A DNA stretch of 64,000 nucleotides from Armatimonadota bacterium. Lineage in GTDB: Bacteria > Armatimonadota > Fimbriimonadia > Fimbriimonadales > GBS-DC. A program made the translations under genes and the position numbers. The notes beneath the pieces are model-generated. The model saw only the letters and a list, made by a program, of their open reading frames with translations. It was not told the origin of the DNA and made no database searches. The stretch lies in NCBI GenBank assembly GCA_013359125.1, contig JABWCR010000008.1, positions 1 to 64,000 on the forward strand, written 5' to 3'. Shown here piece after piece: positions 7,428-25,317 of this stretch. Every line of letters starts with the position of its first letter. Position 1 is the first letter of the stretch.

Positions 7428-9014
7428 ATGCGTTTAGACGACGAGCAACAGCAGGCAGAGGGCGCTCAGCCAAACGAGCAGCCCGAGCCTATCGACCTGA
7501 TCAGCGACCAGCAATCTGAACAGACTGAAGTCTCCGTTGAGCCCATAACCCCAGTGGCGGCCCAACAGCCCATCGAGGAGCCAATAGCTCCGCCTGCCGT
7601 TCCTGGAGCCTCAGACCTCACGATGGAAGACGTCATGCGTCAAGTAGAAGACTCCGACGTGGGCGGCCGATCGCTCAAGCGGGGAGAGATGGTAGAGGGA
7701 AAGGTCGTCCAAGCCGATCGCGAAGGCGTGCTCGTAGACGTCGGTCTCAAGCATGAAATTAGGATCCCTTTGAACGAGTTGGCCGATGGCAATCTGACCA
7801 CTGCGGAAGGCGTATTTAGTCCCGATGACAAGATCAACGCCATTGTAACGGGGACGGCCCGAGAAAAAGAAGGCTTGCAGCTCAGCCATCGTCAAGCGCA
7901 ATTTGAGGACAAGTGGGAAGAGATCGAAGAGGCCATGCGCGACAAGAAAACCCTGCAAGCCATGGTGATCGAGCGTGTCAAGGGCGGCTTGGTCGTTGAT
8001 TTAGGCGTGCGAGGCTTCATCCCGGGCAGCCATGTGGGCGCCCACGGCGGCCTGAAGAATCTGGACCGATTTGTCGGCCAGAGCCTGCCTGTCAAGGTCT
8101 TGGAGATCGACCGCGAGAGGCGAAAGGTCGTCGTTTCCAATCGATTGGCCGAAGAACAGATGTTCGATCAGAAGCGCAAGGACCGCCAAGAACGGCAGTC
8201 GGCCATCTTTGCAAAGCTCCAGGAAGGGGACATTTTGGACGGCACGGTCAGGCGTTTTGCAGCCTACGGCGCATTCGTCGATATCGGCGGGTACGAGGGC
8301 CTGCTCCACATCAGCGAGATGTCGTGGAGCCGAGTGGAAGAACCCAAAGATGTGCTGAGCGAGGGCCAGCAGATTCAGGTCAAAGTGGTCAAGTTAGAGC
8401 GGGAGCGCGGCAAAGTGTCGCTCAGCTTAAGACAGGCCACGCCCGACCCATGGTCCGAAATACCCGATCACTACCAAGTCGGCGCGACCGTTACGGCGCC
8501 CATTAGCCGAGTCGTAAAGAGCGGCGCGTTCGTGAGGCTTCCCGAACAGGTCGAAGCGTTCATCCCCCTTTCCGAGATGGCGGCTCGAAGACCCAAAAAC
8601 GCCGAGGACGTGGTGCGGCTGGGACAAATCATCGAAGGAACCATCATCGAGCTCAACCCCAATGGACGGCGAATGGTCGTTAGCCTCAAGAATCAACAAG
8701 AGGAAGCCGACCGACGCGAGGCGGAGCGATTTCAGCAAAAGAATCGAGCGACACCGAGCGCAGGATTCACCATTGGCGACCGCCTGCAAGAAAAACTACA
8801 AGGCTTGATCGCCAAAGAATTGGGCGAGGAAACGCCTGCCGAACCATCGGCGCCTGTCTCTGATGCGCCAATGCCAGAGCCGGCGGCCGATGCCGCAGAA
8901 GAAGTTGCGGTCTCTGATGCGGCTGCTGAGCCGGCCGTGGCCGAAGCAGCCGAGGAACCTCAAGGCGAAGTCGAGGCGGAACCCAATGCCGAAGAAAAGC
9001 CGTCTGATGACTAA
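7428..9014 (+). CDS. rpsA: 30S ribosomal protein S1
   Basis: 528 residues. An acidic, Pro/Gln-rich N-terminal extension of about 65 residues precedes four S1 RNA-binding domains at roughly 85-150, 168-240, 262-335 and 348-420. The third is the most canonical (FAAYGAFVDIGGYEGLLHIS). The last 85 residues are Glu/Ala/Pro-rich and probably disordered. E. coli S1 has six domains, whereas four-domain forms are common outside Proteobacteria. It would bind mRNA on the 30S subunit and assist initiation on structured leaders. AGGAGG stands 12 bases before the ATG, the stop overlaps the likely coaE start, and a terminator follows coaE, so rpsA-coaE form a short operon. Confidence 0.92.
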   Translation: MRLDDEQQQAEGAQPNEQPEPIDLISDQQSEQTEVSVEPITPVAAQQPIEEPIAPPAVPGASDLTMEDVMRQVEDSDVGGRSLKRGEMVEGKVVQADREGVLVDVGLKHEIRIPLNELADGNLTTAEGVFSPDDKINAIVTGTAREKEGLQLSHRQAQFEDKWEEIEEAMRDKKTLQAMVIERVKGGLVVDLGVRGFIPGSHVGAHGGLKNLDRFVGQSLPVKVLEIDRERRKVVVSNRLAEEQMFDQKRKDRQERQSAIFAKLQEGDILDGTVRRFAAYGAFVDIGGYEGLLHISEMSWSRVEEPKDVLSEGQQIQVKVVKLERERGKVSLSLRQATPDPWSEIPDHYQVGATVTAPISRVVKSGAFVRLPEQVEAFIPLSEMAARRPKNAEDVVRLGQIIEGTIIELNPNGRRMVVSLKNQQEEADRREAERFQQKNRATPSAGFTIGDRLQEKLQGLIAKELGEETPAEPSAPVSDAPMPEPAADAAEEVAVSDAAAEPAVAEAAEEPQGEVEAEPNAEEKPSDD

Positions 9015-9582
9015 TTCGACCATGAAGATAGCGATAACAGGCGGAGCGGCCAGCGGCAAGAGCACGGTTCTAAGCCGATTCAAATCGCTCGGCGCCGCCG
9101 CCCTCGACTCGGATGCGCTCGTGCGAGACCTGCGAGCCGATCCCGACTGGTTGGCGCAAGTGAGAGCGATCTTCGGCAAAGAAGCCTTCGATAGCGACGG
9201 AAAGTTCGACGCCCAAGCGCTTGGGCGCATCGTCTTTGACAATCCGGAGGCTCGACGCTCGCTGAATGCGATCACCCATCCGATAGTCTTGCGTCGAATT
9301 CGCTCGCTTGCCGACGATCGCACGGTCGTGGAAGTCCCTCTTTTGGTCGAAACATCGCTTCAAGGAGAGTTCGATCAGATCGTTGCGACGGAGGCCGGTG
9401 CAGCGGCACAAAGGAAGCGCCTGGAGGCTCGGGGAGTTGCAAACGAGGTCGCAGAAGGGATTCTAAGGTCTCAATTGTCGGACGACGAGCGCAGGAACTT
9501 TGCCGATTGGGTGATTGATACCGGCAAAACTGTCGAAAATACCTATGGACAGGTGGATAAGATTTGGGCGTTACTTTCTTAG
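9007..9582 (+). CDS. coaE: Dephospho-CoA kinase
   Basis: Uses ATP to phosphorylate the 3'-OH of dephospho-CoA, the last step of CoA synthesis. The P-loop is G-G-A-A-S-G-K-S-T just after the start. Other family features are A-L-D-S-D near residue 30, the ITHP helix, V-P-L-L-V-E, and a C-terminal region with R-L-E-A-R and a late Gln before the ADEWVI-like segment (FADWVIDTGKTV). From the ATG at 9007 the protein has 191 residues; an ATG at 9022 would give 186 and is equally plausible. The 9007 start overlaps the rpsA stop by 8 bases. A terminator follows 20 bases after the stop. Confidence 0.93.
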   Translation: MTNSTMKIAITGGAASGKSTVLSRFKSLGAAALDSDALVRDLRADPDWLAQVRAIFGKEAFDSDGKFDAQALGRIVFDNPEARRSLNAITHPIVLRRIRSLADDRTVVEVPLLVETSLQGEFDQIVATEAGAAAQRKRLEARGVANEVAEGILRSQLSDDERRNFADWVIDTGKTVENTYGQVDKIWALLS

Positions 9583-9601
9583 CGGTTGCTCGTCTATCGT
9601 G

Positions 9602-9628
9602 CGAAGGGCAGTACCCCCTTCGTTTTTT
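9602..9628 (+). terminator. Rho-independent terminator after coaE
   Basis: CGAAGGG (9602-9608) pairs with CCCTTCG (9616-9622) around a 7-base loop, followed directly by TTTTTT. Confidence 0.88.
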
Positions 9629-9693
9629 GGGCATTCCGATTTTGCAAGGCGGGCAGGAGAATGAGTAAGCAGGCCGAAACTGGAGGATCAATC

Positions 9694-12600
9694 ATGTCCT
9701 TACGAAACATCGCACTCTTAGTAACGGTATCGTTGGTCGGATGGAGCTGGGGTCAAGACGGGGGCGGAACCGTTCCGGGAGCGCCCAGGCCCAAGTACGA
9801 CCGAAACAACCCTTACGTCATTCCTCAAAAGAACTATCGCGTTGCGCCCAACATGAACCCGGTTACAGGCCGGCTCAACGCTCAGAAGGAAAACAGAACC
9901 CTCAACAATACAAGAAGCTTTACGCCGCCAGCGCGCCAGCGGGCTAATGGAAGAGGTCCTCTGCAGGATCGAGACGTTACCAATGCGCTGAGCGACGAGA
10001 TCCATCCCGTATACAACGCCGACTTTAGGAACTTATTCGTCGCGTCCAATGCGACCGGCACCAACGCGGCAGGCCGTCTGACAGGCGTCGGCGGCGCCTA
10101 CCACATCTGGAGGATGGACAACGAAGGCGGTAGCGCGGTTCGGCTTACGGGAAATGTGCCCGAAGAGGCCAGCGGCGATCAAATTGAACCATCGGTCTCG
10201 GCGAACGCAATCCTGATGGCTTACGCCAACAGACCCGCCGCTGCCAACGCTAACTACAACATTATCTTTCGCACCGTACAGCCTGGCACGCGGATCGCCA
10301 TCACAAACGACTTGTTCGAAAATCGGCGGCCCACTCTGGCGCCCAACGGCAACCTCGTGGCATTCTCGTCGAACCGAGAAGGCGGCCAGTTCAAGATCTT
10401 CCTTGCGCGAACCGACGGCTTCCCGTTTGACGATGGGACGATGTACAGGCGACTTTCCAATCCGCCTGCCGGATTCCACGACATGGAACCTGCTTGGGCC
10501 CCCAATGGCGATCAAATCGCCTTTACAAGGGTGGCTGGAGACGGCTCGAGCAGCATCTACCTGATGGACTATCCCTCGGCGTTCGAGTTCCGATGGACCA
10601 ACTTCCCTCAGGCAAAGGATCGCCAGCCCGCATGGTCGGCCGATTCGGGAACGCTCTTATTTGCGTCCACCAGAAAGGCCACCGCGCTTGCTCAGCGAAC
10701 AACCTCGGTCGGCACGACGTTCGACATCTGGCGCATGTCGGCCAATCCATTGCCCGAAGACGATGCTAACAACATCAACCGACCGCTCGCATTGACCCTC
10801 GATCCGAGCAGTCCTGGCGCGGAGTATCCAACCTCCGCGATCCAGTTCAATCGATTTGCCTATCAATCGGCGCGACCGAACGCGACCAACACCCAGGGCG
10901 CGCACGACATCTGGGAATCGTTGGTCGAAGACCTGACGCCCCCAACTCTCGAAGAGCTGCCCGTAGTCACTCCGAAAGAGTCGTTGCCAGGCACTCCGAT
11001 CACCGTCAAAGCTCGTGTAACCGATTTTCAGAGCGGCATCCGCTCGGTCTACGCTCAGTTCAAAGACCCGGATAGCGCCGAACAAGATTTCGAGGGCTTG
11101 GAGCACAAGATATACCTGCTGGCGAGCATTCTGGTCGATACGTCGATCACAGTGCCTACTTTTGTCGAGATCGGCCAGCAAGCGATCGATCCTGTTACTG
11201 GCGAGTTTGTCGATTCATACGCCGTCTACCCGATCCTCGGCTTCCCGATCCCGAGCCAAGATCCACTGCCATCGGCCATTCGATTGTTCGACGACGGCCC
11301 AGTGTCCCTAGGCGGCAACGAGCCTGAAGGCGAGGTCGCGGGGGACGGCTGGTTCACGACAACTTGGATCACACCCTTGACGGCCAGCGACTTCTACGTC
11401 GATCTGATCGTGCGAGACAACGCCAACAACTTCTTCGTCTACGACAACATTGCCGGCTTTACAACGCTGAACTTTGCCGCCCGCAACAAGATTCTGCTGA
11501 TCGCCGATCACAGCGCGGGACAACAGTTCGTCCAAACGCGCGGCGCCCCGATCGGCGCTTCCGTCGCGCGCCCCACGTGGATCCCGACCGAGAGCTACCT
11601 GACGGACAACCCGACCGGCAAGTTCCCGTTCGACCTCGCGACCGTCGGCAATCAGCAGTTGCCAATATTTGGCGACGGACCGTTCCCTAGCCCGCGCAAC
11701 CCCTTGATGAGCATGCGCTCGGATACCTTGGGAATCAACACCACCAATGACGACACCTACGATCTCTATCGAGTCCAGTGCCGTTTGCCCCTCAATGCCG
11801 GATTGCTCGCGGGCTACCTGCCGCGTATGGAGCCGGAACCGATCGATCTGGTCGGCGGAACTCGACTCAAGTCGGTCGTCAAGAGAATGGTCTTGTTCTC
11901 CAGCCCTTACACCGGCGACGTGTGGGCCGGCCCTGGACATCTGCTGGATGTCAACGTTCAACAGGCATTGAGAACTTATATGCAGTCGGGCGGTCGCCTT
12001 GCAGTTACTGGTCAGGACATTGCGTGGGCCCTAAGTTTGAACGGAGGCCTGTCCAACGACTTCCTCCAGACAGTTCTAAGGATGACCTACGATTCTGACA
12101 CGGCAGAAGATGTCTTCTTGACGCCTTATGACGGTCTGCGCCACCGATTACTGGCCATCGTTCCCGCTGCTGGCGAAGCGAACTTCGTCGGGCAGAACGT
12201 TGGGGCGGGTTGTTGCTGGATACGCATTGTCGGCGGAACCGTCGAATGCGACGCTCCTGCCGACCTGAGGCTGGCCAACCCCGGCGTGTTCCAGATAGAC
12301 GATCAGGGCAACCTGATCACGTTCACGTTTGCCGCAATGCAGTCCATGCCGCTCGGCCCCTTCTTTATGGACGCCGCCTGGAATCAAGTCTGGATCGATA
12401 CCGTTACGGTCAACCCGACCGATCGGTCGCAGTATCGATACGGTACTCCTGGCACCACAGGCGCCAGCGACCGAGCCGGCTTCTACTACACCGACGCGGC
12501 AACGGGCGCAAGGCTGTCGGCATTCGCGTTTGGAATCGAAGGCGTCCATTCTCACTACAACCAGATGACCGGCGGCGTGTGGAATCGCTCTTATCGAAAC

Positions 12601-15033
12601 AAGATCATCCACAACATGGTCGCGGCCTACTTCACTTCCGAACTTACCGGCATCGTCCAGCAGTTCGATCCCGAAACGAACGAAGTGAAGCCTTTGCCCA
12701 GAGCGCTTGTCAGAGTAACGGCGCTGGCGCCGGCAACGATAGCCGGTCAAATCATGGGATACGGCATCACAGACAGCGAAGGCCGCTATCTCATCCAAGG
12801 TCTCGAAGCCGGCCTTTACTTGGTCGATGCCGAGCGAGTCGGCTTTAGGACCCAACACCCTGAGACGATCAGTTGGTGCGATCCCGGCTTGTACACAATG
12901 AACCTAATGATGCTCAAGGTGCCGCCGGGAACGATCCGCGCGCGCGTCGTCGACATCAACGGCACGCCCGTCCAAGGCGCCATAGCGACCGCTACCAGCC
13001 TTGACGATGTGGCCGAACCCGCGATAACAAGCATAACTGGCCCCGATGGCGTTGTCGAACTGAACCGCGTGCCGGTGGGCGACTGGCGCGTAACCGCGGA
13101 CGCTGCGGCGCTTGGCTTCCAGCCAGGCAGCACGCCACCGTTCCAAGACGCGGCCGTTACGCCCGGAGCAGTCCTAACATTGCCGCAAGACTTCGTGGTC
13201 GAACCATTGCCTGGGACAATCGACGGAACGGTCATCGCAGATGCGACCGGACTGCCGATTGCGGGCGCCCAGCTTAGAGTGTTGGCTGGCACCATCGAGC
13301 GCGGCAGCGCAGTTTCTGATGCGAACGGCGCCTTCAGCATGGTAGTCCCAGCGGGCACTTACGAAGTTACAGCCGTTGCGCCCGGCTTCCAGCCTGGCTC
13401 CCTCGGCGCCGTGTTGCAAGCAGGTCAGACCGTTACGCTCACCTTCCGGCTGTTGAACCTGCCGCCCGGTTCGGTGATCGGTACCGTGCGACGCAAGATC
13501 GACAATGCCGGAGAGCCCAACGTTCTAATGGAACTGGTATTCGCCGGAGCGGTCAAGTACACCGCGACGACAAACGCAAACGGCCAGTACACCTTCCCAA
13601 GCGTCGATGCTGCCGACTACGTCATCAGACCTTCGAAAACCGGCTTCACCTTTACGCCGATGACCCGCAACATCACGGTCAACTCCGGCGCCCAGACGAA
13701 TGTGGCCGACTTTATCGGCGAGCCGTTGCGCACCTTCCCCAAAGGTCTGTCTCTGGTTTCGTCGCCGTACGATTACGCACAAGATATCGCCGACTTGCTC
13801 GGAGTGTCTCAAGGCGATCGCGGCACGGCCAACTTCCTGTTCTACGGCTGGGACGCGGCAAACGGCAAATACATCTTCCACCCGATCGCGCCGGCAACCA
13901 CCTTCAAGCATGGCCGAGGCTACTGGATCCAAACCGCCAACAACCTCAGTCTGACGATCGAAGGCACGTTGGCCAACGAAACGCAGGATCAGCCGATCGC
14001 GCTCAAGCAAGGCTGGAACCTGATCGGCGATCCGTTCCGATTCGCGATCAGCTGGTCGGCGACCCGAGTGGTCGATCCCGATAACGGCCAGCAGATCACA
14101 AACCAGCAAGCCGTTGCGAAGGGCTTGATTGCGAACAGCCTCTGGGGCTTCCAATCCGGACAATATCAAGCGGCGCAAACCCAGATCGATCCTTGGCGCG
14201 GATACTGGATATTCGCCTATCGCGATCTGACGCTTATCATCCCGCCTGGGGCTCAGGTTTCGTCGGCGGCCGGGCGCGCCGTTCCAAGAACGGCATCGGA
14301 ATGGCGCATGGCGATTGTGGCCAACACGAGCGACTATGCGGACACCATCCTGGTCGGTGCGGCCAGCTCTGCGACGGACGGATTTGACAACGTGCACGAT
14401 CTGTTGAAACCGCCTCCGGTGGGCGACGAATATCTCTATCTCGTCATGCCGCGCAACGATTGGGGCGGGCACAGCGGTCCCTATGGCGTCGATATCCGAA
14501 ACAAGGGTCGAGCCGCCAGCTGGGACTTTATGGTCGACACAAACGTGGCCGGAGCCGAAATAACGCTCCGTTGGCCAGAGATCACGCGAGCGCCCAGGAC
14601 GGTCAATCCAGTGCTCGTCGATCTTGAAACCAACGAACGGCGCTACATGAGGACGACCGGCGCTTACACATTCCGCGCATCCGCCAGCGGCGGCCAGCAT
14701 CGGTTTAGGATCGAAATGGCGCCCAGCAGCGGCCTGTTGCGGATCAATAACACGCAGGTCACAGGCGGTCGAGCGACGAACGGCGCGCACACGGTTTCGT
14801 ACTCCATCACGCGCGATGCGCAGGTAGAAGTCCGAATCTTGTCCGGCGGCAAGGTTGTGCGCACCCTGGAGAACAGGGCGGGACGCAGCGCGGGCGCCAA
14901 CCAGGCAGTATGGGACGGCCGCAACCAAAGCGGCATCGCCCTGCCGCCCGGTCAGTACACGGTCGAGATCAGAGCCTCAACCACGGACGGCCAAGCCGCC
15001 CGAAGCGTTGCGCCGCTGGTCCTGACGAGATAG
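9694..15033 (+). CDS. Giant secreted propeller/GATase-like/CarboxypepD_reg protein with shared C-terminal module
   Basis: 1779 residues. ATG at 9694 is chosen because GGAGG precedes it by 9 bases and it begins a clean signal peptide; an ATG at 9661 would only add a polar extension. Domains by reading: TolB/PD40-type propeller blades (about 110-380; PNGNLVAFSSNREG, EPAWAPNGDQIAFTR); an Ig-like segment (415-590); a flavodoxin/GATase-like region with NKILLIADHSAG near 597 and the motif G-Q-D-I near 767; four carboxypeptidase-regulatory-like Ig repeats starting near 986, 1075, 1172 and 1258; then the C-terminal module shared with the genes at 16914 and 19879, with G-W-N-L-I-G-D-P and two G-Y-W-I motifs; and a FlgD-like Ig domain ending VAPLVLTR. 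No catalytic site is evident, so a structural or adhesive surface role is inferred. It heads a six-gene run of exported proteins. Confidence 0.82.
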   Translation: MSLRNIALLVTVSLVGWSWGQDGGGTVPGAPRPKYDRNNPYVIPQKNYRVAPNMNPVTGRLNAQKENRTLNNTRSFTPPARQRANGRGPLQDRDVTNALSDEIHPVYNADFRNLFVASNATGTNAAGRLTGVGGAYHIWRMDNEGGSAVRLTGNVPEEASGDQIEPSVSANAILMAYANRPAAANANYNIIFRTVQPGTRIAITNDLFENRRPTLAPNGNLVAFSSNREGGQFKIFLARTDGFPFDDGTMYRRLSNPPAGFHDMEPAWAPNGDQIAFTRVAGDGSSSIYLMDYPSAFEFRWTNFPQAKDRQPAWSADSGTLLFASTRKATALAQRTTSVGTTFDIWRMSANPLPEDDANNINRPLALTLDPSSPGAEYPTSAIQFNRFAYQSARPNATNTQGAHDIWESLVEDLTPPTLEELPVVTPKESLPGTPITVKARVTDFQSGIRSVYAQFKDPDSAEQDFEGLEHKIYLLASILVDTSITVPTFVEIGQQAIDPVTGEFVDSYAVYPILGFPIPSQDPLPSAIRLFDDGPVSLGGNEPEGEVAGDGWFTTTWITPLTASDFYVDLIVRDNANNFFVYDNIAGFTTLNFAARNKILLIADHSAGQQFVQTRGAPIGASVARPTWIPTESYLTDNPTGKFPFDLATVGNQQLPIFGDGPFPSPRNPLMSMRSDTLGINTTNDDTYDLYRVQCRLPLNAGLLAGYLPRMEPEPIDLVGGTRLKSVVKRMVLFSSPYTGDVWAGPGHLLDVNVQQALRTYMQSGGRLAVTGQDIAWALSLNGGLSNDFLQTVLRMTYDSDTAEDVFLTPYDGLRHRLLAIVPAAGEANFVGQNVGAGCCWIRIVGGTVECDAPADLRLANPGVFQIDDQGNLITFTFAAMQSMPLGPFFMDAAWNQVWIDTVTVNPTDRSQYRYGTPGTTGASDRAGFYYTDAATGARLSAFAFGIEGVHSHYNQMTGGVWNRSYRNKIIHNMVAAYFTSELTGIVQQFDPETNEVKPLPRALVRVTALAPATIAGQIMGYGITDSEGRYLIQGLEAGLYLVDAERVGFRTQHPETISWCDPGLYTMNLMMLKVPPGTIRARVVDINGTPVQGAIATATSLDDVAEPAITSITGPDGVVELNRVPVGDWRVTADAAALGFQPGSTPPFQDAAVTPGAVLTLPQDFVVEPLPGTIDGTVIADATGLPIAGAQLRVLAGTIERGSAVSDANGAFSMVVPAGTYEVTAVAPGFQPGSLGAVLQAGQTVTLTFRLLNLPPGSVIGTVRRKIDNAGEPNVLMELVFAGAVKYTATTNANGQYTFPSVDAADYVIRPSKTGFTFTPMTRNITVNSGAQTNVADFIGEPLRTFPKGLSLVSSPYDYAQDIADLLGVSQGDRGTANFLFYGWDAANGKYIFHPIAPATTFKHGRGYWIQTANNLSLTIEGTLANETQDQPIALKQGWNLIGDPFRFAISWSATRVVDPDNGQQITNQQAVAKGLIANSLWGFQSGQYQAAQTQIDPWRGYWIFAYRDLTLIIPPGAQVSSAAGRAVPRTASEWRMAIVANTSDYADTILVGAASSATDGFDNVHDLLKPPPVGDEYLYLVMPRNDWGGHSGPYGVDIRNKGRAASWDFMVDTNVAGAEITLRWPEITRAPRTVNPVLVDLETNERRYMRTTGAYTFRASASGGQHRFRIEMAPSSGLLRINNTQVTGGRATNGAHTVSYSITRDAQVEVRILSGGKVVRTLENRAGRSAGANQAVWDGRNQSGIALPPGQYTVEIRASTTDGQAARSVAPLVLTR

Positions 15034-15077
15034 CAAACAATGAGACGAACTCGGTACACCAAGGAGGAGCGACCGTA

Positions 15078-16865
15078 GTGAATAACTGGACTAAAGCGGT
15101 CTCGGTCAAGATGTTAACGTGGGCGGCAGTGGCGAACCTGGCAATCATGCCATGCCTGTTGCCCTTTGCTTCGGCTGCCTATGCGCAGCCCGGGTTCGAA
15201 ACGGCGCCGACAGCGGCCGTTTTGGACTTCAACAACACCAGCGGCTATGGAGGCGCCGGCTTGGCTCGCGCCGCTGCCGATGCCGTTGGCCTTGAGATTC
15301 GAAAGTCCAATCGGTTCGCTCTTATGCAACAGAGCGCGGTCGACCGACAGCTCAGCGATCTCGGGCTCGCAACGCCTCTCAATCGCGTGGGCTACTTGCG
15401 ATTGGGGCAAGCCCTCCGCACCGACACCTTTATCACGGGCGATGTCCGCTCGGTCACCTTCTCCGGCACGCCGCGCCAATGCCGCGTGATCCTTGAGGTT
15501 CGGTTTGTCGATACGGCGTCGGGCGAAACTGTGAACGGTTCCGTCAAAGCGGGTATGAGCAACCCTCGGCCAGGCTACAGCGGCGAGGACGACACGCTTC
15601 TTAACGAAGCGATCGGGAACGCCGCGTTCGAAGCCGTTCGAGAAGTGCTGACCTATACGATCCCCGAATCGACAGTCCTCAACACCCGTGCGGCCAGAGA
15701 GGTCATCCTCAACTCCGGTCTCCGAAGCGGCATCAAGGAAGGCATGGAGATGATCATCATTCGGCGCGGTGAAGAAGTCGCGCGCGTTCGTGTGCGCCGC
15801 GTCTCCGATCATGACGCCGAAGCGATCATCATCGCCGAAACCCGCGGCGTGCGACCCGAAGACAAAGCCCGAGCGATCTTCCGTATCCCAGAAGTCAGCG
15901 TCGATCGAGCCAGTGGCCGCGTTATCGAGCATTCCACTTCTCGCTCCCGATCCAAAGGTCTTGGCGCTATCGGCAGCGTTTTGCTCGCCGTTGGCGTCAT
16001 CTATGCCGTCACCAAGATGGCCAGCGGCAACAACGAAGCCGCGGGCAAAGTCGTTGCCGAGCCCGGACGCGACCGCAACGGTCTGCCGATCATGCAGGTT
16101 ACTTGGAGCCCCAGCATCTTTGCCAAGAGCGACGTTAATCGCATCCAATGGCAGATCTATCGAAGCGACGTGCAGACCACCGATGGCAACGGCGCGCGCG
16201 TTCCCGTTGGAGTGTTGCAGGGCAACCAAACGACCTTCATCGACACCCTTATTCCGGCCACTTTCGTCTATGCGAGTTTGCCTCATCACGAGCAGGCTGC
16301 CGAAGACCCGAACTACACTGACGGTACGGGCGTCGCGATCACTCCCGGAGTCAACTACACCTACGAGGTTGCGCTGACCTACTCGCAACTGCAAGTTACG
16401 GGTGGCCAGTCCCAGACGGTGTTCAGGACTAGCCGCGCTACGGGCAACGCATCCGCAACAGTGATAGCGCCTCCTACCATCGTTACGCCGCTCAACCGAA
16501 GCCAAGATGTGGATCCGCGCGACGTTCAGTTCACCTGGACGACCAGCGCAGGCGCTAACGAATACGTGGTGGAAGTATCGTACGACAAGACCTTCATCAA
16601 TCGCGCTCAGACGTTCGTGTCGCCGATCATCTCATCGACAGGCGGCGGCGGAATCAGTCTGAGCACCGAGCGACTCAATATCGAGGGCGCGCCGCTGAAC
16701 ATAAACCGCGGCCAACGGGTCCGATTGTTCTGGAGGGTTGGAGCGCGCAGCGCTTTCGACCGTCCCGGCCCCCGACCCGATCCGGCCGGAAACGGCTCGC
16801 GCTTCGTTTTCAGCGATCCGTTCGAGTTCGATACGCAGGAACTGCCGCCTCCTCCCAATCAATAG
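15078..16865 (+). CDS. CsgG/FlgT-like secreted protein with internal TM segment and FnIII-like domains
   Basis: 595 residues from a GTG with AGGAGG 9 bases upstream. A signal peptide (about 1-38) precedes a CsgG-type domain: A-V-L-D-F-N-N-T-S near residue 47, helices that read as nucleotide-free CsgG/TolB-N fold (FALMQQSAVDRQL), and D-T-F-I-T-G-D-V. A FlgT-C-like segment follows (GLRSGIKEGMEMIIIRRGEE). Near residue 295 a hydrophobic helix of about 20 residues could cross a membrane. The C-terminal half has two FnIII-like domains (YEVALTYSQLQV; VQFTWTTSAGANEYVVEVS) and a proline-rich end. CsgG is the curli export channel and FlgT a flagellar periplasmic factor. The position between two module-bearing surface proteins suggests an export or assembly role, but this is inference. 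Confidence 0.7.
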   Translation: MNNWTKAVSVKMLTWAAVANLAIMPCLLPFASAAYAQPGFETAPTAAVLDFNNTSGYGGAGLARAAADAVGLEIRKSNRFALMQQSAVDRQLSDLGLATPLNRVGYLRLGQALRTDTFITGDVRSVTFSGTPRQCRVILEVRFVDTASGETVNGSVKAGMSNPRPGYSGEDDTLLNEAIGNAAFEAVREVLTYTIPESTVLNTRAAREVILNSGLRSGIKEGMEMIIIRRGEEVARVRVRRVSDHDAEAIIIAETRGVRPEDKARAIFRIPEVSVDRASGRVIEHSTSRSRSKGLGAIGSVLLAVGVIYAVTKMASGNNEAAGKVVAEPGRDRNGLPIMQVTWSPSIFAKSDVNRIQWQIYRSDVQTTDGNGARVPVGVLQGNQTTFIDTLIPATFVYASLPHHEQAAEDPNYTDGTGVAITPGVNYTYEVALTYSQLQVTGGQSQTVFRTSRATGNASATVIAPPTIVTPLNRSQDVDPRDVQFTWTTSAGANEYVVEVSYDKTFINRAQTFVSPIISSTGGGGISLSTERLNIEGAPLNINRGQRVRLFWRVGARSAFDRPGPRPDPAGNGSRFVFSDPFEFDTQELPPPPNQ

Positions 16866-16913
16866 AGAGACGACAGGCGAATACATCCCATGCACTCCAA
16901 TGAGGGTATCAAG

Positions 16914-19850
16914 ATGATGAAATCAATGTGGATCGCGGTAGTGGCGACCGGACTGTTGGGATTCGCCAACAGTCAGCCTCGCCAGATCGAATTTGTGCCC
17001 GGCCAAATCGTGTTGACGGCAAAGCCCGGCGTTCTGTTGACCACGGTGCGCCAAATTGCGTCCACGGTCGGCGCCGAGGCCAAACCGATTCTGTGCCAGG
17101 ATACCTATCTGCTGACTCTGCCTGCGGGCGGGAGCGATGCGGCCGCTATGAGACAGCGGACGCTGACCGCCGTCGAGAGCCTAAGGGCGCATCAGCAGGT
17201 CTGGCTAGTACGGCCCAATTACCTCGATCGTCCTCTTGATACCGTCCCCAACGATCCGCGATACCCCGATCAGTGGGCCCTGCCCATGATCAATGCGCCC
17301 CAAGCATGGGACATAGAACTGGGCGACGCGGCCGTCAAGGTTGGCGTCATCGATACCAACTTTCGGTCTACCCATCCCGACATGGTGGGCCGATACGACA
17401 CCACCCTCAGCCGCAACTTCGTGGCCGAGCCGCCCGACAATAACATCGATCCGGGCGGCGGCGGATCATCGCACGGTACCGGCGTCGCAAGCGTCATCGT
17501 GGCCAATGCGAACAACGGGATCGGGATGGCGGGCTTATGCTGGGAAAACGTCCAAGTCGTCGCCATGAAGACGAACAACAACGACGGCGGGCTGCCCTTC
17601 TCCAACATTTTACAGGCATACCAGCACGTCAACGACAACGTCGCCGTCATCGACGCCGTTAACATGAGCTACGGCGGCTTTCGACCGCCCGACCAGCAAG
17701 AGGAAGGCTTCTTCCAAAACTGGATTCAGAACGGCTGTGTGCCGGTCGCCGCAGCAGGCAACGACAACACCGACTCTCGAAGCTTCCAACCCGCAGGCTC
17801 AGATCGAGTCATCACAGTCGCGGCAGTAGGCCCGACGATGAACAAAGCAAGCTATTCGAACTACGGAAAGATCGACCTGGCTGCCCCTGGCGGAGATATG
17901 CAAAACGCGCTCAATCAGGGCGTATTGGTGGCCACCCCGCAAGGCGACTACGAGTTCACCCAAGGCACCTCGTTCGCATCGCCCTATGTGGCGGCTGCAG
18001 TGGGCCTGCTACGATCCGCCGGGGTGCCTCGCACGGTTCGAAGAGCGCCTAACGGACGCGACTTCCCCGAAGCCGCCGTCGTCCTTATGGAGACGGCTAA
18101 TAGCCTTGGTCGGCGAGTGCCCGACCCTGAATTTGGCAGCGGACTGATCGACATGTTCGCTGGCATCAAAGGCGCTGGCGCGTTCTGCGTCATAGACGCC
18201 CCGATCAACGGCAGAACGTTCGACACTCTTCGAAATCGGGTTACTATGCACTTTGGCGGCACGGCCCCCGATCTTATCACCATTACGCTGAACGGCAACA
18301 ACCTGCCAACCTCCGAGTGGCAGCCGTTGTTGGTGCCCGATCAACAGGATCCAGGCAGATTCGACCTGTCGTACGTCAAGCAGTTCAGTACCGGACGGCA
18401 AGAATTGAGCGCGCGAGTAGTCAGCACGGTCGATCCGACGGTTACGGCCAGTGCGTCGACGGTATTCTTCGTTTCGCCTCACAAAGTGATCGCCGGCCTC
18501 GACATCTTCGCCACGCCTTACGGCGTTCCGGCAGCGCCCGAAGAGACGCTTGGCGTCGATTTTGCCATGGCGCGCTGGATTACTGATCCGCAGCATCCCA
18601 ATGGCGGCTTCTACGCCCGCTACTTCGGCGATGGAGAGAAGGACGCCCGAGCAAGCTTTGCGCCTCCGGGCACCGATGTTCGGCCAGACGGCGAAACCAT
18701 ACCAACGCCGCCGAGAGGCCTTGGCTATTTCCTTAGCCTCAACAACGACATCGTCATCCAAGCTATGGACCCGATCGAACTGACGCAGGCTTATCGAATA
18801 CCCCTGACGCCGGGCTGGAACATGATCGGCAATCCGTTCCCGTTCGACGTCGATTGGAACGGCTGCGAAGTGGAAATCATCGGCGACGGCGCCATACCGC
18901 AACGGCTGTCGCTGATCCAAGCCGCCGACCAAGGCTACGTCCGGCTACAAATCTATCGCTACCTGCCATTCGAAGGCGATTACACCTGGAAAACTGCGCC
19001 TTTAGGCGAGATGCTTCGCTGGTCCGGACACTGGGTCCGCGCGCTCAAAGCCTGTACGCTCGTCGTGCCGCCTTTGGCATCGCGCTCTCGGTCGGTCGCA
19101 GGACGCGCCGCCCCAAGCCTCTCCGAAGGCTGGGCAATGCGATTGACCGCATCGACGGCCGACCGATCCAGCGCAAACGTGTTCATCGGCGCATCAAGGC
19201 AAGCGAACGACTCGATCGGCAGAGAAGACGTGGAGAAACCGCCCGTGTGGCGAAGCTACTTGAGAGTAGCCGTGCGATCCGAAGATTCGCGCGACTGGCT
19301 GGCGCAAGACATCCGTAAGATGGATAGCCGTCGCAAGACTTGGATCGTCGAAGTCAGTTGCGATCAGCCAGACGCGGACGTCTCGATGAACTGGAGCCAA
19401 GAACTGGCGCTGCCCAACGGCGCGCGTCTCGTTATCGAAGACATGTTGACAGGCCGCAAAGTCAGCATGACCCAAGAGAGCGGCTATCGCTTCCGAATGA
19501 ACGGCCAAACCTCTCGGACGTTTAAGGTTACGGCCGAAAGCATGGTTCGCTCAAGAGTGATGATCAGCGATCTGTCCGTCGCCCCGTCTCGAGCAAGAGG
19601 GTCGTACGATGTTCGATATAACCTTACCGGGTCGGCCTTGGTCAACGTCCAAGTAACCACCGTATCGGGCCAAGCCGTGGCGCGTCTAAACTCTGGATCG
19701 CGCTCGGCCGGATCGAACTCGGTTACATGGAACGGTCGAAACGAGGCAGGCATCGCGCTTCCATCGGGCGCCTATCTGGTTAACGTAACCGCAGTAACAG
19801 AAGAAGGCGAGACGGTGAGACGAGTAGCGCCGGTTGTGATTTCGCGATAA
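16914..19850 (+). CDS. Secreted subtilisin-like (S8) protease with shared C-terminal module
   Basis: 978 residues from the ATG at 16914, which has GAGGG upstream; an in-frame ATG at 16890 has no such site. After a signal peptide comes an I9-like propeptide region, then the S8 domain: Asp in V-G-V-I-D-T near 146, His in S-S-H-G-T-G near 187, oxyanion Asn in A-A-G-N-D-N near 280, and Ser in G-T-S-F-A-S-P near 353. All four catalytic positions are intact, so an active extracellular protease is expected. The remaining 550 residues carry an Ig-like domain, the duplicated module with G-W-N-M-I-G-N-P (18813-18839), and a FlgD-like Ig domain ending VAPVVISR. Possible jobs are nutrient protein degradation or processing of the neighbouring surface proteins. 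Confidence 0.92.
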   Translation: MMKSMWIAVVATGLLGFANSQPRQIEFVPGQIVLTAKPGVLLTTVRQIASTVGAEAKPILCQDTYLLTLPAGGSDAAAMRQRTLTAVESLRAHQQVWLVRPNYLDRPLDTVPNDPRYPDQWALPMINAPQAWDIELGDAAVKVGVIDTNFRSTHPDMVGRYDTTLSRNFVAEPPDNNIDPGGGGSSHGTGVASVIVANANNGIGMAGLCWENVQVVAMKTNNNDGGLPFSNILQAYQHVNDNVAVIDAVNMSYGGFRPPDQQEEGFFQNWIQNGCVPVAAAGNDNTDSRSFQPAGSDRVITVAAVGPTMNKASYSNYGKIDLAAPGGDMQNALNQGVLVATPQGDYEFTQGTSFASPYVAAAVGLLRSAGVPRTVRRAPNGRDFPEAAVVLMETANSLGRRVPDPEFGSGLIDMFAGIKGAGAFCVIDAPINGRTFDTLRNRVTMHFGGTAPDLITITLNGNNLPTSEWQPLLVPDQQDPGRFDLSYVKQFSTGRQELSARVVSTVDPTVTASASTVFFVSPHKVIAGLDIFATPYGVPAAPEETLGVDFAMARWITDPQHPNGGFYARYFGDGEKDARASFAPPGTDVRPDGETIPTPPRGLGYFLSLNNDIVIQAMDPIELTQAYRIPLTPGWNMIGNPFPFDVDWNGCEVEIIGDGAIPQRLSLIQAADQGYVRLQIYRYLPFEGDYTWKTAPLGEMLRWSGHWVRALKACTLVVPPLASRSRSVAGRAAPSLSEGWAMRLTASTADRSSANVFIGASRQANDSIGREDVEKPPVWRSYLRVAVRSEDSRDWLAQDIRKMDSRRKTWIVEVSCDQPDADVSMNWSQELALPNGARLVIEDMLTGRKVSMTQESGYRFRMNGQTSRTFKVTAESMVRSRVMISDLSVAPSRARGSYDVRYNLTGSALVNVQVTTVSGQAVARLNSGSRSAGSNSVTWNGRNEAGIALPSGAYLVNVTAVTEEGETVRRVAPVVISR

Positions 19851-19878
19851 TGAGGATTAGGTTAGAGGAGGAGTTGCA

Positions 19879-22572
19879 ATGAAGTATCGTTATTTTGCGT
19901 TGGTTGGTTTGGCTAGCTTGGCTCTGGGGGCCATTGGGCAAAGCATCTACAACCCGAACGCGGGCGGAAGCCTTTGTTCGTGCCCAGACCTGCAGCCGGG
20001 CGATACCGGCGTCAGCGACGACTATGGCGCGAACGGGGTTACCAACGGCTTCATCACGGCCCTTTTGGCGTCGAGCGGGTCCGTGCAGTGGGCTACAGGC
20101 TGCTTCCCCATCGCGGGCGGAAACTGCGTTACGCTGCAGGCGCCTGGCGCGATCGCCATCGGTACGGGAGCCCAAGGCTCTGCTCTGTTGGGCGCCGCCG
20201 ACCGAAACTATGCAATGACCTCTACCTATCCTTGGCCCACTCGGCCGGGCGGTATCTTTATCACCCTTCAGCATCAGGTTGTGGGCGAAGACGCCGTAAC
20301 GACGGAGATCTGGGGCGACGAAGGCGCCGACTTCCAGCGCGTTTACAACGGCGCGAGCGGCCCCTACGTGCGCGAACAGTGGTACAAAGGCAACTTGATC
20401 ACCGACATGCGCATGGAGATCATCCAAAACGTCGTGCGGTTCCGATTGCAGATCCGCAACGGAAGCGCAACGGACAGCATCGATCTTGGAGCGCGCTTCG
20501 CGTCCGACGTCGAAGCGGGAGAAGAATCTCGACCTCAATTCTTGTACACGGGCCAAGGCCGACCGATACGAGTCGATACCAACATCGTCGGCGCAAACGT
20601 GCCCCAAACGGTCGAATTCTACAACACTCGATCCGACCTGGTCGCAGCATCCCGCTACATACTAGCGCCCCAAGCCGGATTTGAAGATGCGACTCGGGCA
20701 GACCGAATCGTCCTCGGAAAGTGGTTCTTCGTCATGGGCACTTCCAACTGGGAACCCGTGCTCTTCGAGGACAACCTCATCAACGATCCGGCGCTGCTGA
20801 TCTTCCACAACCCGCGCCGAATCGGCCCCGGACAACAGATCGAGTTTGTCTGGTACGTCTCGATGGTCCCCGCAACCGTTAACACCGGTCGACCGGTGGC
20901 CTTGGGCACCGAGGCAGAGCCGGTGCTCGACTTTGATCCGGCAGGAACCAACGGATTGCGAAACAACCCGACCACCATCTATGCTCACGTCTCTAACCAA
21001 TACTTTGACATTGGCCAAGAGCTTGAACTAAAGGACGTAAGCGTCGACATCTCCCTCCCGCCCGGTTTGGCGTTAGAGCCTGGAGAACTCAGAACAAAGA
21101 CGATACCCCTATTGAGAGCCGATCAAACAGTCTCTGTGTCGTGGCGCGTCAGAGCCTCAGGCCAGGTTACAGGCCCGCTCACCTACAGAGTCTCTGTCTC
21201 TGCGCCCCCCGCACCATCAAAATCTGTATCCCGTACTATGGTGATTGCGGGCACAAACAGAAAACGGTACGAACCCGGATTCCAGATGATCTCGTTCCCG
21301 TTCAATCTACAAGACAACCTGGCACAAGTTCTTGGGCTGAGCACAGAACAGTTCTCGGCGCGTACTTGGGTGCCCGAACGGAATCGCTACGAGGCCATAA
21401 CCAGCATCGTTCCAGGTCATGGCATGTGGCTCTTCATGCCCGATACGGCGTTCGATACAACGCTGTCCAGCATCCAGCAGGTGCAGGGCACATTCAACGA
21501 CACCTATACCATTCGCCTGACCAAAGGCTGGAACCAGATCGGCAATCCTTGGGTCTATAGTCTGCCCTGGGGACAGTTAGTCATGGTGGCCGGAGAAGAC
21601 CCGACAAGAACGCTAACCCTCGCCGAGGCCGTCAACCGCGGGATCATTCGCGGCGTCCTCTACTACTGGGACGAGTTCTCGCGCGAGTACAAGTTCTCGT
21701 CAGACCTGACCGCCTTGCTGAATCCGCACCGGGGATATTGGATCAAACTCAACTCGAACATCGATCTCAGCTTTCCGCCCATCTTCATCCCTGGCTCTGG
21801 CCAATCCGGCACGCCGAGATCGGCCTTGCCAGAACCGATGACCAAGAACAACTGGAAACTGCAAGTTGTGGCCAACATGGGCGACCTGATCGATTCGCAA
21901 AACTTTATCGGCATCTCGCCAAACGCGCAATCGGGTGTCGATTCGCTCGATGTCGAAGAGCCGCCGGCAGGCTTCAACGACCTCAACCTTTCGCTCATGC
22001 CCTCGCTAGAATCGGGGCAGGGCTACATGCAAGACCTGCGGTCGGCCAGCGACGCGCGCTGGGAGTACGACTTTGTGGTGCGCGCGACGCCGGGCGAAGA
22101 AGTAGCGCTGACTTGGCCGAATGCGCGAACGATCGGCAAGGATTACAACATCCGCCTGATCGATCAGCAAACAGGTCGCGCAATCAGCATGGGCAACGTA
22201 GCCGAGCATCGGTTCAGAGCGAGCGGAACGGATTGGTTCAAGGTGTCGATCGACCGTCGCTCGAAGGGCACGGCAGTCATCACAGCGATGAATGTGAGCC
22301 CAGCCGGTCGAGGCGTTAACAGCGTGGCGATCAACTACTCGCTGTCCGCCGACGCCAATGCCGAGGTGCGAATAACGAGCACTAACGGTAAGGCTATCGC
22401 AACCTTGGATAGAGGCCGATCGGCAACCCGGGGCGTCAACACCATCAATTGGAACCTAAGAGATGGCGGCGGCAGGGCCGTTCCATCGGGCGCCTACATG
22501 GTCGAGGTGATTGCCACCACCGAAGGCGGCGAGCGAGCTCGTGCCGTCAGGCCGATCGTCGTAACGCGATAG
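19879..22572 (+). CDS. Secreted protein of unknown function with shared C-terminal module
   Basis: 897 residues, with a strong ribosome binding site (GAGGAGGAG) and a signal peptide ending Gly-Ala-Ile-Gly-Gln. The N-terminal 330 residues form a beta-rich domain I do not recognise, with an early Cys-x-Cys (SLCSCPDLQ) and a later Cys pair. An Ig-like domain follows (about 360-455; LKDVSVDISLPPGL), then the module common to the genes at 9694 and 16914: two half-repeats (GFQMISFPF and GWNQIGNPW), two G-x-x-W-L/I motifs, and a FlgD-like Ig domain ending VRPIVVTR. Codon use and direction match its neighbours. It is probably the third cargo of one surface-localisation pathway. Confidence 0.72.
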   Translation: MKYRYFALVGLASLALGAIGQSIYNPNAGGSLCSCPDLQPGDTGVSDDYGANGVTNGFITALLASSGSVQWATGCFPIAGGNCVTLQAPGAIAIGTGAQGSALLGAADRNYAMTSTYPWPTRPGGIFITLQHQVVGEDAVTTEIWGDEGADFQRVYNGASGPYVREQWYKGNLITDMRMEIIQNVVRFRLQIRNGSATDSIDLGARFASDVEAGEESRPQFLYTGQGRPIRVDTNIVGANVPQTVEFYNTRSDLVAASRYILAPQAGFEDATRADRIVLGKWFFVMGTSNWEPVLFEDNLINDPALLIFHNPRRIGPGQQIEFVWYVSMVPATVNTGRPVALGTEAEPVLDFDPAGTNGLRNNPTTIYAHVSNQYFDIGQELELKDVSVDISLPPGLALEPGELRTKTIPLLRADQTVSVSWRVRASGQVTGPLTYRVSVSAPPAPSKSVSRTMVIAGTNRKRYEPGFQMISFPFNLQDNLAQVLGLSTEQFSARTWVPERNRYEAITSIVPGHGMWLFMPDTAFDTTLSSIQQVQGTFNDTYTIRLTKGWNQIGNPWVYSLPWGQLVMVAGEDPTRTLTLAEAVNRGIIRGVLYYWDEFSREYKFSSDLTALLNPHRGYWIKLNSNIDLSFPPIFIPGSGQSGTPRSALPEPMTKNNWKLQVVANMGDLIDSQNFIGISPNAQSGVDSLDVEEPPAGFNDLNLSLMPSLESGQGYMQDLRSASDARWEYDFVVRATPGEEVALTWPNARTIGKDYNIRLIDQQTGRAISMGNVAEHRFRASGTDWFKVSIDRRSKGTAVITAMNVSPAGRGVNSVAINYSLSADANAEVRITSTNGKAIATLDRGRSATRGVNTINWNLRDGGGRAVPSGAYMVEVIATTEGGERARAVRPIVVTR

Positions 22573-22598
22573 TCGTCGGATAGAATGGTAAATTGCGA

Positions 22599-22628
22599 GC
22601 CGCGAAAGGCGTCAAAACCTTTCGCGGC
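22599..22628 (+). other. Perfect 11-bp hairpin between genes
   Basis: GCCGCGAAAGG (22599-22609) and CCTTTCGCGGC (22618-22628) pair perfectly around an 8-base loop. No T-run follows, so it is not a classic terminator. It lies between the stop of the large secreted gene and the TTG start at 22662. It may stabilise or process the mRNA, or end transcription weakly. TAGAAT at 22581-22586 just upstream could be a -10. Confidence 0.6.
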
Positions 22629-22661
22629 ATCGCGCATAATAGGAGTCTGAGGAGGGTAACC

Positions 22662-23351
22662 TTGAGATACGGAAGTCTGATCCTAATCCTGATCGGCCTG
22701 CTGACGGCGAGCGCTTTCGGCCAGAACAGAAGCTTGGCAATCTTGCCCCTAAATTTGGGCAGCGGCGTGTCAAGCCCCGAAAAGTTCAATGCCTCCACCG
22801 AGGCTACGGGCGCCCTGTACAGCGCTTTGCAAAAGGCGTCGGGCGTCATGGTCTACCGTGCGAGGGCCAATCATCCGTCCCTTAGCCGCGCCGTTGCAGA
22901 AGGTCGGCTTCGACGCGAAAGGCTCGACCCGCCCTACACAGGCAGAGAGGTGGACGGAACATGGGTCGGCGTCCGCTTGGGGAGAGAACTCAGCGCAGAC
23001 TACGTTATCGTCGGTACCGTCGAGGAGTTCTCTTCGGCCGATGGCGGCAAGTCGGCCCGAGTTACCCTCAACATCGATCTGCTCGAAGTCAAGACCAATC
23101 GATTGGTGCTTTCGTCGGCCGAGTCGGGCGTTGGCCGAATCAGCGACGATCAGCCCGTCGGCAATCAAGCATATATCAGCGCGCTCAACGATGCGGCGTC
23201 AAAAATCAAAGCAGGCGTGCTCGAGGCCGTCGGCGTTACCGAACAATCGCCGGAAGCACAAAAGCGCAACAAACGCCAAGGCGAACTGGGCGTAGCCGCG
23301 CTGTTTGGCGTGTCGTTCCTAATCGGATTGCGCTTGCTCACGCAGCGATAG
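22662..23351 (+). CDS. Second CsgG-like secreted protein with C-terminal TM helix
   Basis: 229 residues. The TTG at 22662 is chosen because GAGGAGG lies 8 bases upstream and it gives a compact signal peptide; the longer frame would translate the hairpin at 22599-22628. The mature protein starts NRSLAILPLNLGSG and carries Y-V-I-V-G-T-V near residue 112, the fold pattern of CsgG/TolB-N domains. The last 20 residues before the end form a hydrophobic helix followed by a short basic tail (LLTQR), suggesting tail anchoring. It is much shorter than the CsgG-like protein at 15078 and lacks its FnIII-like domains. It lies 13 bases before the outer-membrane barrel gene and is likely co-translated with it. 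Confidence 0.65.
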   Translation: MRYGSLILILIGLLTASAFGQNRSLAILPLNLGSGVSSPEKFNASTEATGALYSALQKASGVMVYRARANHPSLSRAVAEGRLRRERLDPPYTGREVDGTWVGVRLGRELSADYVIVGTVEEFSSADGGKSARVTLNIDLLEVKTNRLVLSSAESGVGRISDDQPVGNQAYISALNDAASKIKAGVLEAVGVTEQSPEAQKRNKRQGELGVAALFGVSFLIGLRLLTQR

Positions 23352-23364
23352 TCTAACGGCCACT

Positions 23365-25317
23365 GTGGGAAGTCTCAAGGCCCTCCATCTGCTCGGCTGG
23401 TGGGCCTTGATGCTGTTTGTGGCCGGCATGCCGGCATTCGGTCAGGCTGGATCGGTGCGGCTGACCGCCTATCCCGAAGCTGCCGTCGCAGACGGTCGCA
23501 GCATCATCCTACTGACGGCGGAGTGCTACCGAAGGGATGGGAAACCCGTTCCCGATGGTACCACCGTCTTCTTCAATGCAACGCTCGGACAGTTCCGAGA
23601 GCAGATCGTCAAGACCGAGGGCGGTGCGGCAAGAGCGACTCTGATCGCAGGCTCGGTACCTGGCGTTTCAAAAATAACGGCGACTGTCGAAGGCGGCGTC
23701 GGCACGGGAGAGATCCAAGTACTCTTCGTCGGCGATCAGAAGGAACTGCTGAACATTTCCGAGTTCGTAGAAGTCGCGGGCAGCGAATATCTGGGCTACG
23801 CCGTCGAAACGAACATCATGGCCGCCTCGGGCGTGCGGGGCGGCGCCTCGGTAAGGTACCGGTTCTGCACGATAGTCGCAGACGACCTGCAGGTCGACTG
23901 CTCGACATTGGTCGTGGTCGCTCGAAACGCGATCGTCTCATACGGCTCGACAAGCTTCGAGTACGTGCAAGCGCAAATCAATATCCGCAGCGGGGAAGGA
24001 GTTGCGATGGCGCGCCGCGAGGGCGAGCTAGTCGCCATGCAGTTCAAGCGTGGCGAGGAAACCTCGATAGATCGCCCTGTTTCGCCCAGCACGTTCCAAT
24101 TTGCCGATCTCTCGGCCAGTCAACTGGTCATTGTGGCGTCAAGCGCTTGGTTCTATCCCGGCGAACGTATTCAGTTTCGCAGAGCCAACTTCTACGTAGA
24201 GGGCGAACGCGCTTTCACGCTCCCGCTCTATTCTCATGCAGTCTTCGGGTCGGCCGCTTCTCTCAGCGACAATCTGTTTGGAATACGCGACGGCAAATTC
24301 TATGTCGATGTGCCCTACTACTATACGCTAACCCCAGAGACCGAAGGCGCGCTGAAACTTAGAACGCAACGCAGATATGGCCGGGGCATTGGCGCATCCT
24401 CGGGGCTCTTCATGGACCTAGAGCACGCCTATCGCGGCAAGAATCGCAGCAGCGGACAGTTCACCACGGCGGGATTGCTTCGGTCGGATTGGGGCGCCAA
24501 CTGGAGGCACTACCAACCGATCGGAACCGACTCCCAACTCTACCTCTACCTCGATTCGCCGTCCCACACCGGCCTCTTTGGGTCGGTCAATTGGAACAAG
24601 CAGTGGACCGCGCTCTCGACGGGCCTCAGTCTGTCTGGCGGACGTCAGTGGAGCGGGTCGCGCTCTAGCTCTCAGCGCGCCGAGATATACATCGCCACCA
24701 TGCCTCGCCCCGTGGCCGATCTGCCGCTTCGCTTCTCTATGTCGATCAATGCCGGCACAAGCGTAACGCAGACGACCGGAGCGCCGCGCATCCGACGCGA
24801 CGGCATTGGCGTAAGAAGCCGCCTCCAATCCATCCCGTGGCGAATAGGCAACGGCGGCAGCCTCTCGTCGGCCCTTTCCTTTGGCCGCTACTTTGGCAAT
24901 ACGGGCATCCAATCTTGGGAAACTCTTTTCACCGCCACCTATTCGGGCTACTTGGGAGGTTTAGGCACAATCATGCTCGGTTACGACTTTAGCCAAGACC
25001 CGCTGAGCAGCACCGTATTGGGCAAGCATCGATTGACGGCTAACCTCTACTCAAACTATTCAGGGCGCATCTACATGAGCGGCTACTTGGCGCGGGGTTT
25101 AGACGTGCCGGCCACTACGCTCATAGGCGATGCAAGCTACCGATTGGCCGACCTCTGGCGCATAGGCGTCGGCATTACTTGGACGGAATATTCAAACTCC
25201 AGATTCAACGACTACTACTTGACTCTTGGGTATCGAATCGGTCTAAGAGAACTGGCGCTATCCTGGTCGAGGGCTACGCAGCGGCTCAGCATCGACATTT
25301 TGGCCGCTTCGTTCTAA
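23365..25317 (+). CDS. Outer-membrane beta-barrel protein with N-terminal Ig (Big_1-like) domain; LptD/OstA-like features
   Basis: 650 residues from a GTG; signal peptide of about 26 residues. Residues 28-120 form an Ig fold of the invasin/Big_1 type (DGRSIILLTAECYRRDGKPV; GTTVFFNATLGQF). The middle contains strands reminiscent of OstA/LptD (FRRANFYVEGERAFTLPLYS; FYVDVPYYYTLTPETEG). The C-terminal 250 residues alternate aromatic and polar residues as in transmembrane strands, and the last residue is Phe (RLSIDILAASF), the beta-signal recognised by BamA. Inference: an outer-membrane channel or anchor. LptD itself is much longer and has conserved cysteines not seen here, so lipopolysaccharide export is not claimed. 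No ribosome binding site precedes the start, so coupling to the upstream CsgG-like gene is likely. Confidence 0.68.
   Translation: MGSLKALHLLGWWALMLFVAGMPAFGQAGSVRLTAYPEAAVADGRSIILLTAECYRRDGKPVPDGTTVFFNATLGQFREQIVKTEGGAARATLIAGSVPGVSKITATVEGGVGTGEIQVLFVGDQKELLNISEFVEVAGSEYLGYAVETNIMAASGVRGGASVRYRFCTIVADDLQVDCSTLVVVARNAIVSYGSTSFEYVQAQINIRSGEGVAMARREGELVAMQFKRGEETSIDRPVSPSTFQFADLSASQLVIVASSAWFYPGERIQFRRANFYVEGERAFTLPLYSHAVFGSAASLSDNLFGIRDGKFYVDVPYYYTLTPETEGALKLRTQRRYGRGIGASSGLFMDLEHAYRGKNRSSGQFTTAGLLRSDWGANWRHYQPIGTDSQLYLYLDSPSHTGLFGSVNWNKQWTALSTGLSLSGGRQWSGSRSSSQRAEIYIATMPRPVADLPLRFSMSINAGTSVTQTTGAPRIRRDGIGVRSRLQSIPWRIGNGGSLSSALSFGRYFGNTGIQSWETLFTATYSGYLGGLGTIMLGYDFSQDPLSSTVLGKHRLTANLYSNYSGRIYMSGYLARGLDVPATTLIGDASYRLADLWRIGVGITWTEYSNSRFNDYYLTLGYRIGLRELALSWSRATQRLSIDILAASF

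Follow-up and report, generated by a model that had tools for sequence, protein, structure and literature searches.

Three large proteins encoded in one gene cluster of an Armatimonadota bacterium end in nearly the same eight residues, VAPLVLTR, VAPVVISR and VRPIVVTR, which raises the question of whether these C-termini act as a sorting signal, as the original prediction for this DNA proposed, or serve another purpose. The cluster lies in a stretch of 64,000 nucleotides that was analysed as a whole (the window). The translations confirm the three ends, at positions 15033, 19850 and 22572, and each closes a Pfam FlgD_ig domain (PF13860) that scores 36–52 bits against a gathering cut-off of 27. 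The genes for the three proteins, here called A, B and C, are arranged in the order A (with tail), CsgG-like, B (with tail), C (with tail), short CsgG/LpoB-like and large barrel, and the features of this region are:

7428-9014, + strand: S1-domain protein, upstream conserved neighbour
8863-9582, + strand: dephospho-CoA kinase CoaE, upstream conserved neighbour; the frames overlap the S1 gene and the true start is later
9586-15033, + strand: protein A, with PD40 propeller repeats, four CarboxypepD_reg domains, a GWNLIG-type module and an FlgD-like tail ending VAPLVLTR
14731-15030, + strand: FlgD-like C-terminal domain of A, final 8 codons at 15007-15030
15075-16865, + strand: long CsgG-like protein, predicted to be exported, with a C-terminal fn3/SusE-like region
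16890-19850, + strand: protein B, predicted exported subtilase with a GWNMIG module and an FlgD-like tail ending VAPVVISR
19548-19847, + strand: FlgD-like C-terminal domain of B, final 8 codons at 19824-19847
19879-22572, + strand: protein C, predicted to be exported, with an N-terminal fold without assignment, a GWNQIG module and an FlgD-like tail ending VRPIVVTR
22267-22569, + strand: FlgD-like C-terminal domain of C, final 8 codons at 22546-22569, forming the last β-strand
22593-23351, + strand: short CsgG/LpoB-like protein, predicted to be exported (LpoB E = 6.6e-4, under its cut-off), conserved in position
23365-25317, + strand: outer-membrane barrel protein with an N-terminal Invasin_D3/Big_1 domain and a barrel of about 22-24 strands in the model

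The frame of A opens at 9586 and the likely true start is 9694 (MSLRNIALLV..., a signal peptide). For the long CsgG-like gene we infer a start at 15075; its open frame extends back to 14910, overlapping A. In the window sequence, A, B, C and their neighbours have signal peptides that are obvious by eye. The S1 and CoaE genes (7428..9582) are not thought to be part of the system.

A scan of C-termini had been suggested as a check on the motif. As a stand-in for a proteome-wide scan, we searched the 2.82 Mb genome for DNA able to encode V-x-P-[LIV]-V-[LIV]-[ST]-R-stop (a degenerate, back-translated pattern) and ran a profile scan. The pattern occurs four times and the reversed control gives 0 occurrences. 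The fourth copy, on contig C2, ends VAPVVVSR and likewise belongs to an FlgD_ig protein. The genome holds four family-level FlgD_ig matches over the cut-off, all in large exported multidomain tail proteins, and the strict pattern and the terminal domain thus coincide one to one. The description of these proteins as unrelated had to be given up: all four have a common C-terminal module of ~415 residues, composed of a GWNLIGNPF-type region and FlgD_ig, with 28–31% identity to the first sequence and 46 invariant columns. Their N-terminal parts do differ, with PD40 and CarboxypepD_reg domains in A, a subtilase in B and a fold without assignment in C.

The claim that the last eight residues are conserved more strictly than the remainder of the domain does not hold either. 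Over 98 relatives their mean conservation is 2.57 bits, compared to 2.21 bits for the preceding domain and 3.0–3.15 bits for the domain core W-x-x-R / P-P-G-x-Y. We modelled the C-terminal 430 residues of C with AlphaFold2 (mean pLDDT 84). In this model the motif forms the final β-strand of an Ig-like sandwich, at residues 419-428, and Thr-Arg is the free end. A free-standing eight-residue tag was therefore rejected: the motif belongs to the Ig fold as its last strand, and most tails deviate from the strict pattern even in the order, where 20/97 fit it, as against 6/128 in other families. The last 30 residues of the tails are β-strands without a hydrophobic helix, unlike PEP-CTERM sorting signals, which combine a short motif with a transmembrane helix and a basic cluster. 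Foldseek searches of the PDB with the C-terminal module return generic β-sandwiches, among them type IX PorU and PorZ, and the match is unspecific.

A motif that forms the terminal strand of an Ig fold, with conservation moderately above the domain average and under that of the core, is what would be expected if the tail were a structural Ig-like cap that provides stability or docks to an adjacent domain or partner, while the proteins leave by general routes. The terminal Arg would then close the last strand or have another structural reason. FlgD_ig is moreover a widespread fold whose best PDB match is flagellar FlgD, and the tails of A, B and C follow their orthologues. We regard such a cap as possible but rather unlikely, in view of the distribution of the tail described next and of the pattern of its loss discussed further below.

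We followed the tail through 101 genomes, i.e. the window's own and 100 relatives from the order Fimbriimonadales, using a profile built from the four tails. It matches in 92/101 of these genomes, and in 40/44 genomes of a phylum sample, with 1 to 46 matches per genome. The pattern might have been a peculiarity of three close paralogues, and the 225 distinct tail ORFs sampled across Armatimonadota show that it is not. The terminal Arg is present in 215 of the 225, comprising 97/97 unique tails within the order and 118/128 tails from the phylum's other families, compared to 13.4% of 688 other ORFs of at least 200 residues from the same regions, a background set that includes some spurious frames. 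All six Arg codons occur at tail ends, which places the constraint on the residue. Even the weakest of the ten exceptions that lack Arg scores 48 bits, which means that the inclusion of these ORFs did not hinge on their last residue. From the order to the rest of the phylum, P at position -6 falls from 97% to 43%, and Arg at -1 from 100% to 92%. The FlgD-like domain is never found internally (0 copies among 227 tail ORFs), in regions that were picked by profile matches, a choice that gives too little weight to internal or poorly matching copies. A structural cap leaves unexplained both why the domain is never internal and why Arg ends 215/225 tails while adjacent strand residues drift.

The passengers that carry the tail include subtilases, PD40 and WD40 propellers, an M6 peptidase, a β-helix protein, a Disaggr_assoc protein and some proteins without a known domain. 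An uncharged hydrophobic N-terminal stretch is present in 97/113 tail rows longer than 400 residues versus 172/323 other long ORFs in the order, a crude proxy for signal peptides, as frames were read from stop to stop, duplicates were kept in the tail list and spurious frames are among the others. The proposal of a C-terminal sorting signal thus gains from the fixed C-terminal position, the interchangeable passengers, the Arg that is near-invariant phylum-wide and the up to 46 copies per genome.

The claim that the signal is new stands less well, as the domain is akin to the type IX type-A C-terminal domain (CTD) and its motif is an Ig-fold strand; the tail is better described as type-IX-like, in a phylum where no type IX translocon was detected. 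Like type-A CTDs, it is a C-terminal Ig-like β-sandwich that caps varied exported proteins, has many copies in some genomes, and has a conserved last strand and a basic residue at or near the end. It differs from them in that the terminal Arg is almost invariant at the exact end, and in that the tail genes go with CsgG-like genes and a different barrel. In type IX secretion the final residues matter to export: RgpB lacking its two C-terminal residues stays periplasmic, whereas a C-terminal extension is tolerated (PMC11285876). Since an extension is tolerated, likeness to type IX alone would not explain an invariant last residue. Profile searches place the tail closest to the Ig-like domain of FlgD: all 25 tails match PF13860 and thus belong to the same sequence family, and 0/25 match PF18962 (Por_Secre_tail). 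Unlike in flagellar FlgD, the domain here caps large exported multidomain proteins. In a search of the PDB with the tail profile, flagellar FlgD is the best match and PorZ and PorU are weak ones, that to PorU extending to three residues from the chain end. Against TIGR04183 (cut-off 23) the B tail alone scores 24.4 bits, full-length B 19.2 bits and two other tails 18.4 and 15.5 bits. Type IX tails, annotated as such or putative, encoded on Runella and Rhodothermus plasmids score 43–46 bits and match FlgD_ig too; that of Rhodothermus is in register with the tails studied here and ends ...KKIVLVK, and that of Runella ends ...TTKVLKN.

These similarities invite the view that a genuine type IX system is present, with translocon parts too diverged for the profiles used. 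The original prediction had noted that Por genes are missing. None were indeed found: the conserved cluster contains no Por genes, SprA_N matches 0/291 phylum genomes at E ≤ 1e-3, and neither the PorV family nor Peptidase_C25 (PorU-type) is found in the window's genome. However, the SprA, PorV and C25 searches had no proper positive control: those for SprA and C25 matched none of 14 control genomes, so their sensitivity is unproven, and PorV gave a weak match in one control genome. SprA, PorV and a PorU-type peptidase are therefore probably absent as far as searched, and since searches for the translocon gave no match, we do not class the tails as type IX. A hidden type IX system would draw on the borderline TIGR04183 score of the B tail, on the matching of the PorU and PorZ CTDs to near their ends and on the silent controls. 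It is opposed by the absence of SprA_N, PorV and C25 matches, by the lack of any PF18962 match among the tails and by a conserved cluster without Por genes, and we consider it very improbable. A review confines type IX tails to Bacteroidota, where their distribution follows that of the type IX machine (PMC10202324). If a related, strictly C-terminal tail occurs across a phylum without a detected SprA, either the signal predates the machine or there is a second machine by which the tail is read. We found nothing on point in the literature on FlgD-like sorting domains or type IX secretion in Armatimonadota.

The neighbourhood of the tail genes offers candidates for such a second machine. In the order Fimbriimonadales the cluster comes after S1 and CoaE, and the arrangement S1 - CoaE - [A] - CsgG-like - [B] - C - [short CsgG-like] - barrel is conserved order-wide, with much of this order kept phylum-wide; the complete cluster order is found again in distant families of the phylum. 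Orthologues of A are present at 15/15 f1/f2 cluster loci examined. The sampled loci of family f3 are limited to CsgG-like - C - barrel, with C as the tail protein retained.

The long CsgG-like gene is found in 272/291 phylum genomes (191/194 good ones). Its family resembles the CsgG curli secretion channel in showing weak CsgG similarity and in being predicted to be exported: PF03783 CsgG matches 3/17 family members, with a best E of 5.5e-7, and the window protein falls below the threshold. It differs from CsgG in its long extra C-terminal region, in that most family members stay below detection, and in that the window protein has, by eye, no lipobox Cys after its signal sequence ...LPFASAAYAQ. 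A PDB sequence search with the CsgG-like profile gave nothing significant. In several f3 genomes (G040, G047, G051, G056, G058, G075 and G053) the CsgG-like match crosses one in-frame stop (TAA/TAG), which may simply mark where a shorter protein naturally ends.

The barrel profile matches in 277/291 phylum genomes (188/194 good ones; 151/156 genera), mostly as a single copy, and genomes with up to 46 tail copies carry one full-length barrel. The protein at 23365-25317 is thus, judging from its sequence family, a near-universal and mostly single-copy outer-membrane protein of Armatimonadota. All 17 barrel family members examined have the N-terminal Invasin_D3 domain, and the modelled barrel has roughly 22-24 strands, counted from secondary structure. 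LptD and chaperone-usher barrels are its best Foldseek matches (E about 1e-13 and 1e-7). It is nevertheless unlike either of them, with TM-scores of about 0.2-0.3, an N-terminal Invasin_D3/Big_1 domain and 0 Pfam matches to either. The near-universal barrel and the CsgG-like proteins can accordingly be named as candidates for secretion in a poorly studied phylum.

The barrel could also serve as an anchor for proteins exported in another way. Three secretin genes are present in the window's genome (C6:39515-40006, C2:70719-71210 and C20:371-865), which may belong to type II secretion or to a type IV pilus, and a type II route is therefore open. The proteins would then be exported by a type II or other secretin system and the tail would anchor them at the surface, putatively by binding the large barrel or some other component of the envelope. 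A shared signal sequence is not required of type II substrates, and the barrel adjoins the tail genes in the conserved cluster. Against this, the secretins may be type IV pilus parts and the barrel persists without tails; we consider this combination improbable.

Lineages that lack the tail bear on several of these views. In the f34/f35 samples (L128 and L129), B and C are present and the tail is absent, and in the f11 samples (L126 and L143) A, B, C and tail genes are all missing from the cluster; in both cases the CsgG-like and barrel genes are retained. This implies that the CsgG-like protein and the barrel have a role beyond the tails, and it counts against a simple machine-plus-signal view. 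Within the order, protein C of G023 (L058:5865-8372, - strand) ends exactly ahead of the FlgD domain, with 36 bases from its end to the open frame of the next gene, and B of the same genome keeps its tail. Read from the sequence, this is a clean natural tail loss. Together with the tail-less B and C it indicates that the tail can be lost, and as the loss affects C alone it counts against the signal reading and agrees with a structural cap. The parallel absence of the tail from B and C in the f34/f35 samples is left unexplained by a structural cap; it would fit if a reader common to both had been lost, and that reader may be another gene.

Taken together, we favour the reading that the FlgD-like domain serves, in the manner of a type IX type-A CTD, as a C-terminal signal for export or attachment, because of the Arg ends in 215/225 tails, the fixed C-terminal place, the varied passengers and the conserved cluster, and we put its probability at about 0.5. 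A tail protein would enter the periplasm via Sec, consistent with the signal peptides read by eye and with the crude hydrophobicity count. An outer-membrane apparatus would recognise the folded Ig-like tail by its last strand and by the free Arg at its end, and would move the passenger to the cell surface or fix it there. This apparatus would differ from a detectable SprA/PorV translocon, and its prime candidate would be the CsgG-like proteins with the single large barrel. Export or attachment through the tail makes a single-residue prediction, the terminal Arg. A more far-reaching and quite speculative possibility is that Armatimonadota have an outer-membrane secretion or attachment system of their own, in which the CsgG-like proteins and the phylum-wide barrel handle up to dozens of Arg-ended tail proteins; type IX tails and this system would then share an ancestral signal domain and have different translocons. 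Counting against the favoured reading, most genomes of family f3 carry one or two tail proteins only, which is hardly a general sorting route.

The highest tail numbers are found in G246 and G275 (families f37 and f44), with 46 and 45 matches scattered over many contigs. We also considered concerted evolution of the tails within a genome, expected if all tails track one local receptor, and rejected it, as the tails follow orthologues instead. At locus L121 (G206), two large tail proteins of one cluster end in the same nine residues, RGITMFNLR, which suggests a recent duplication or conversion of the tail.
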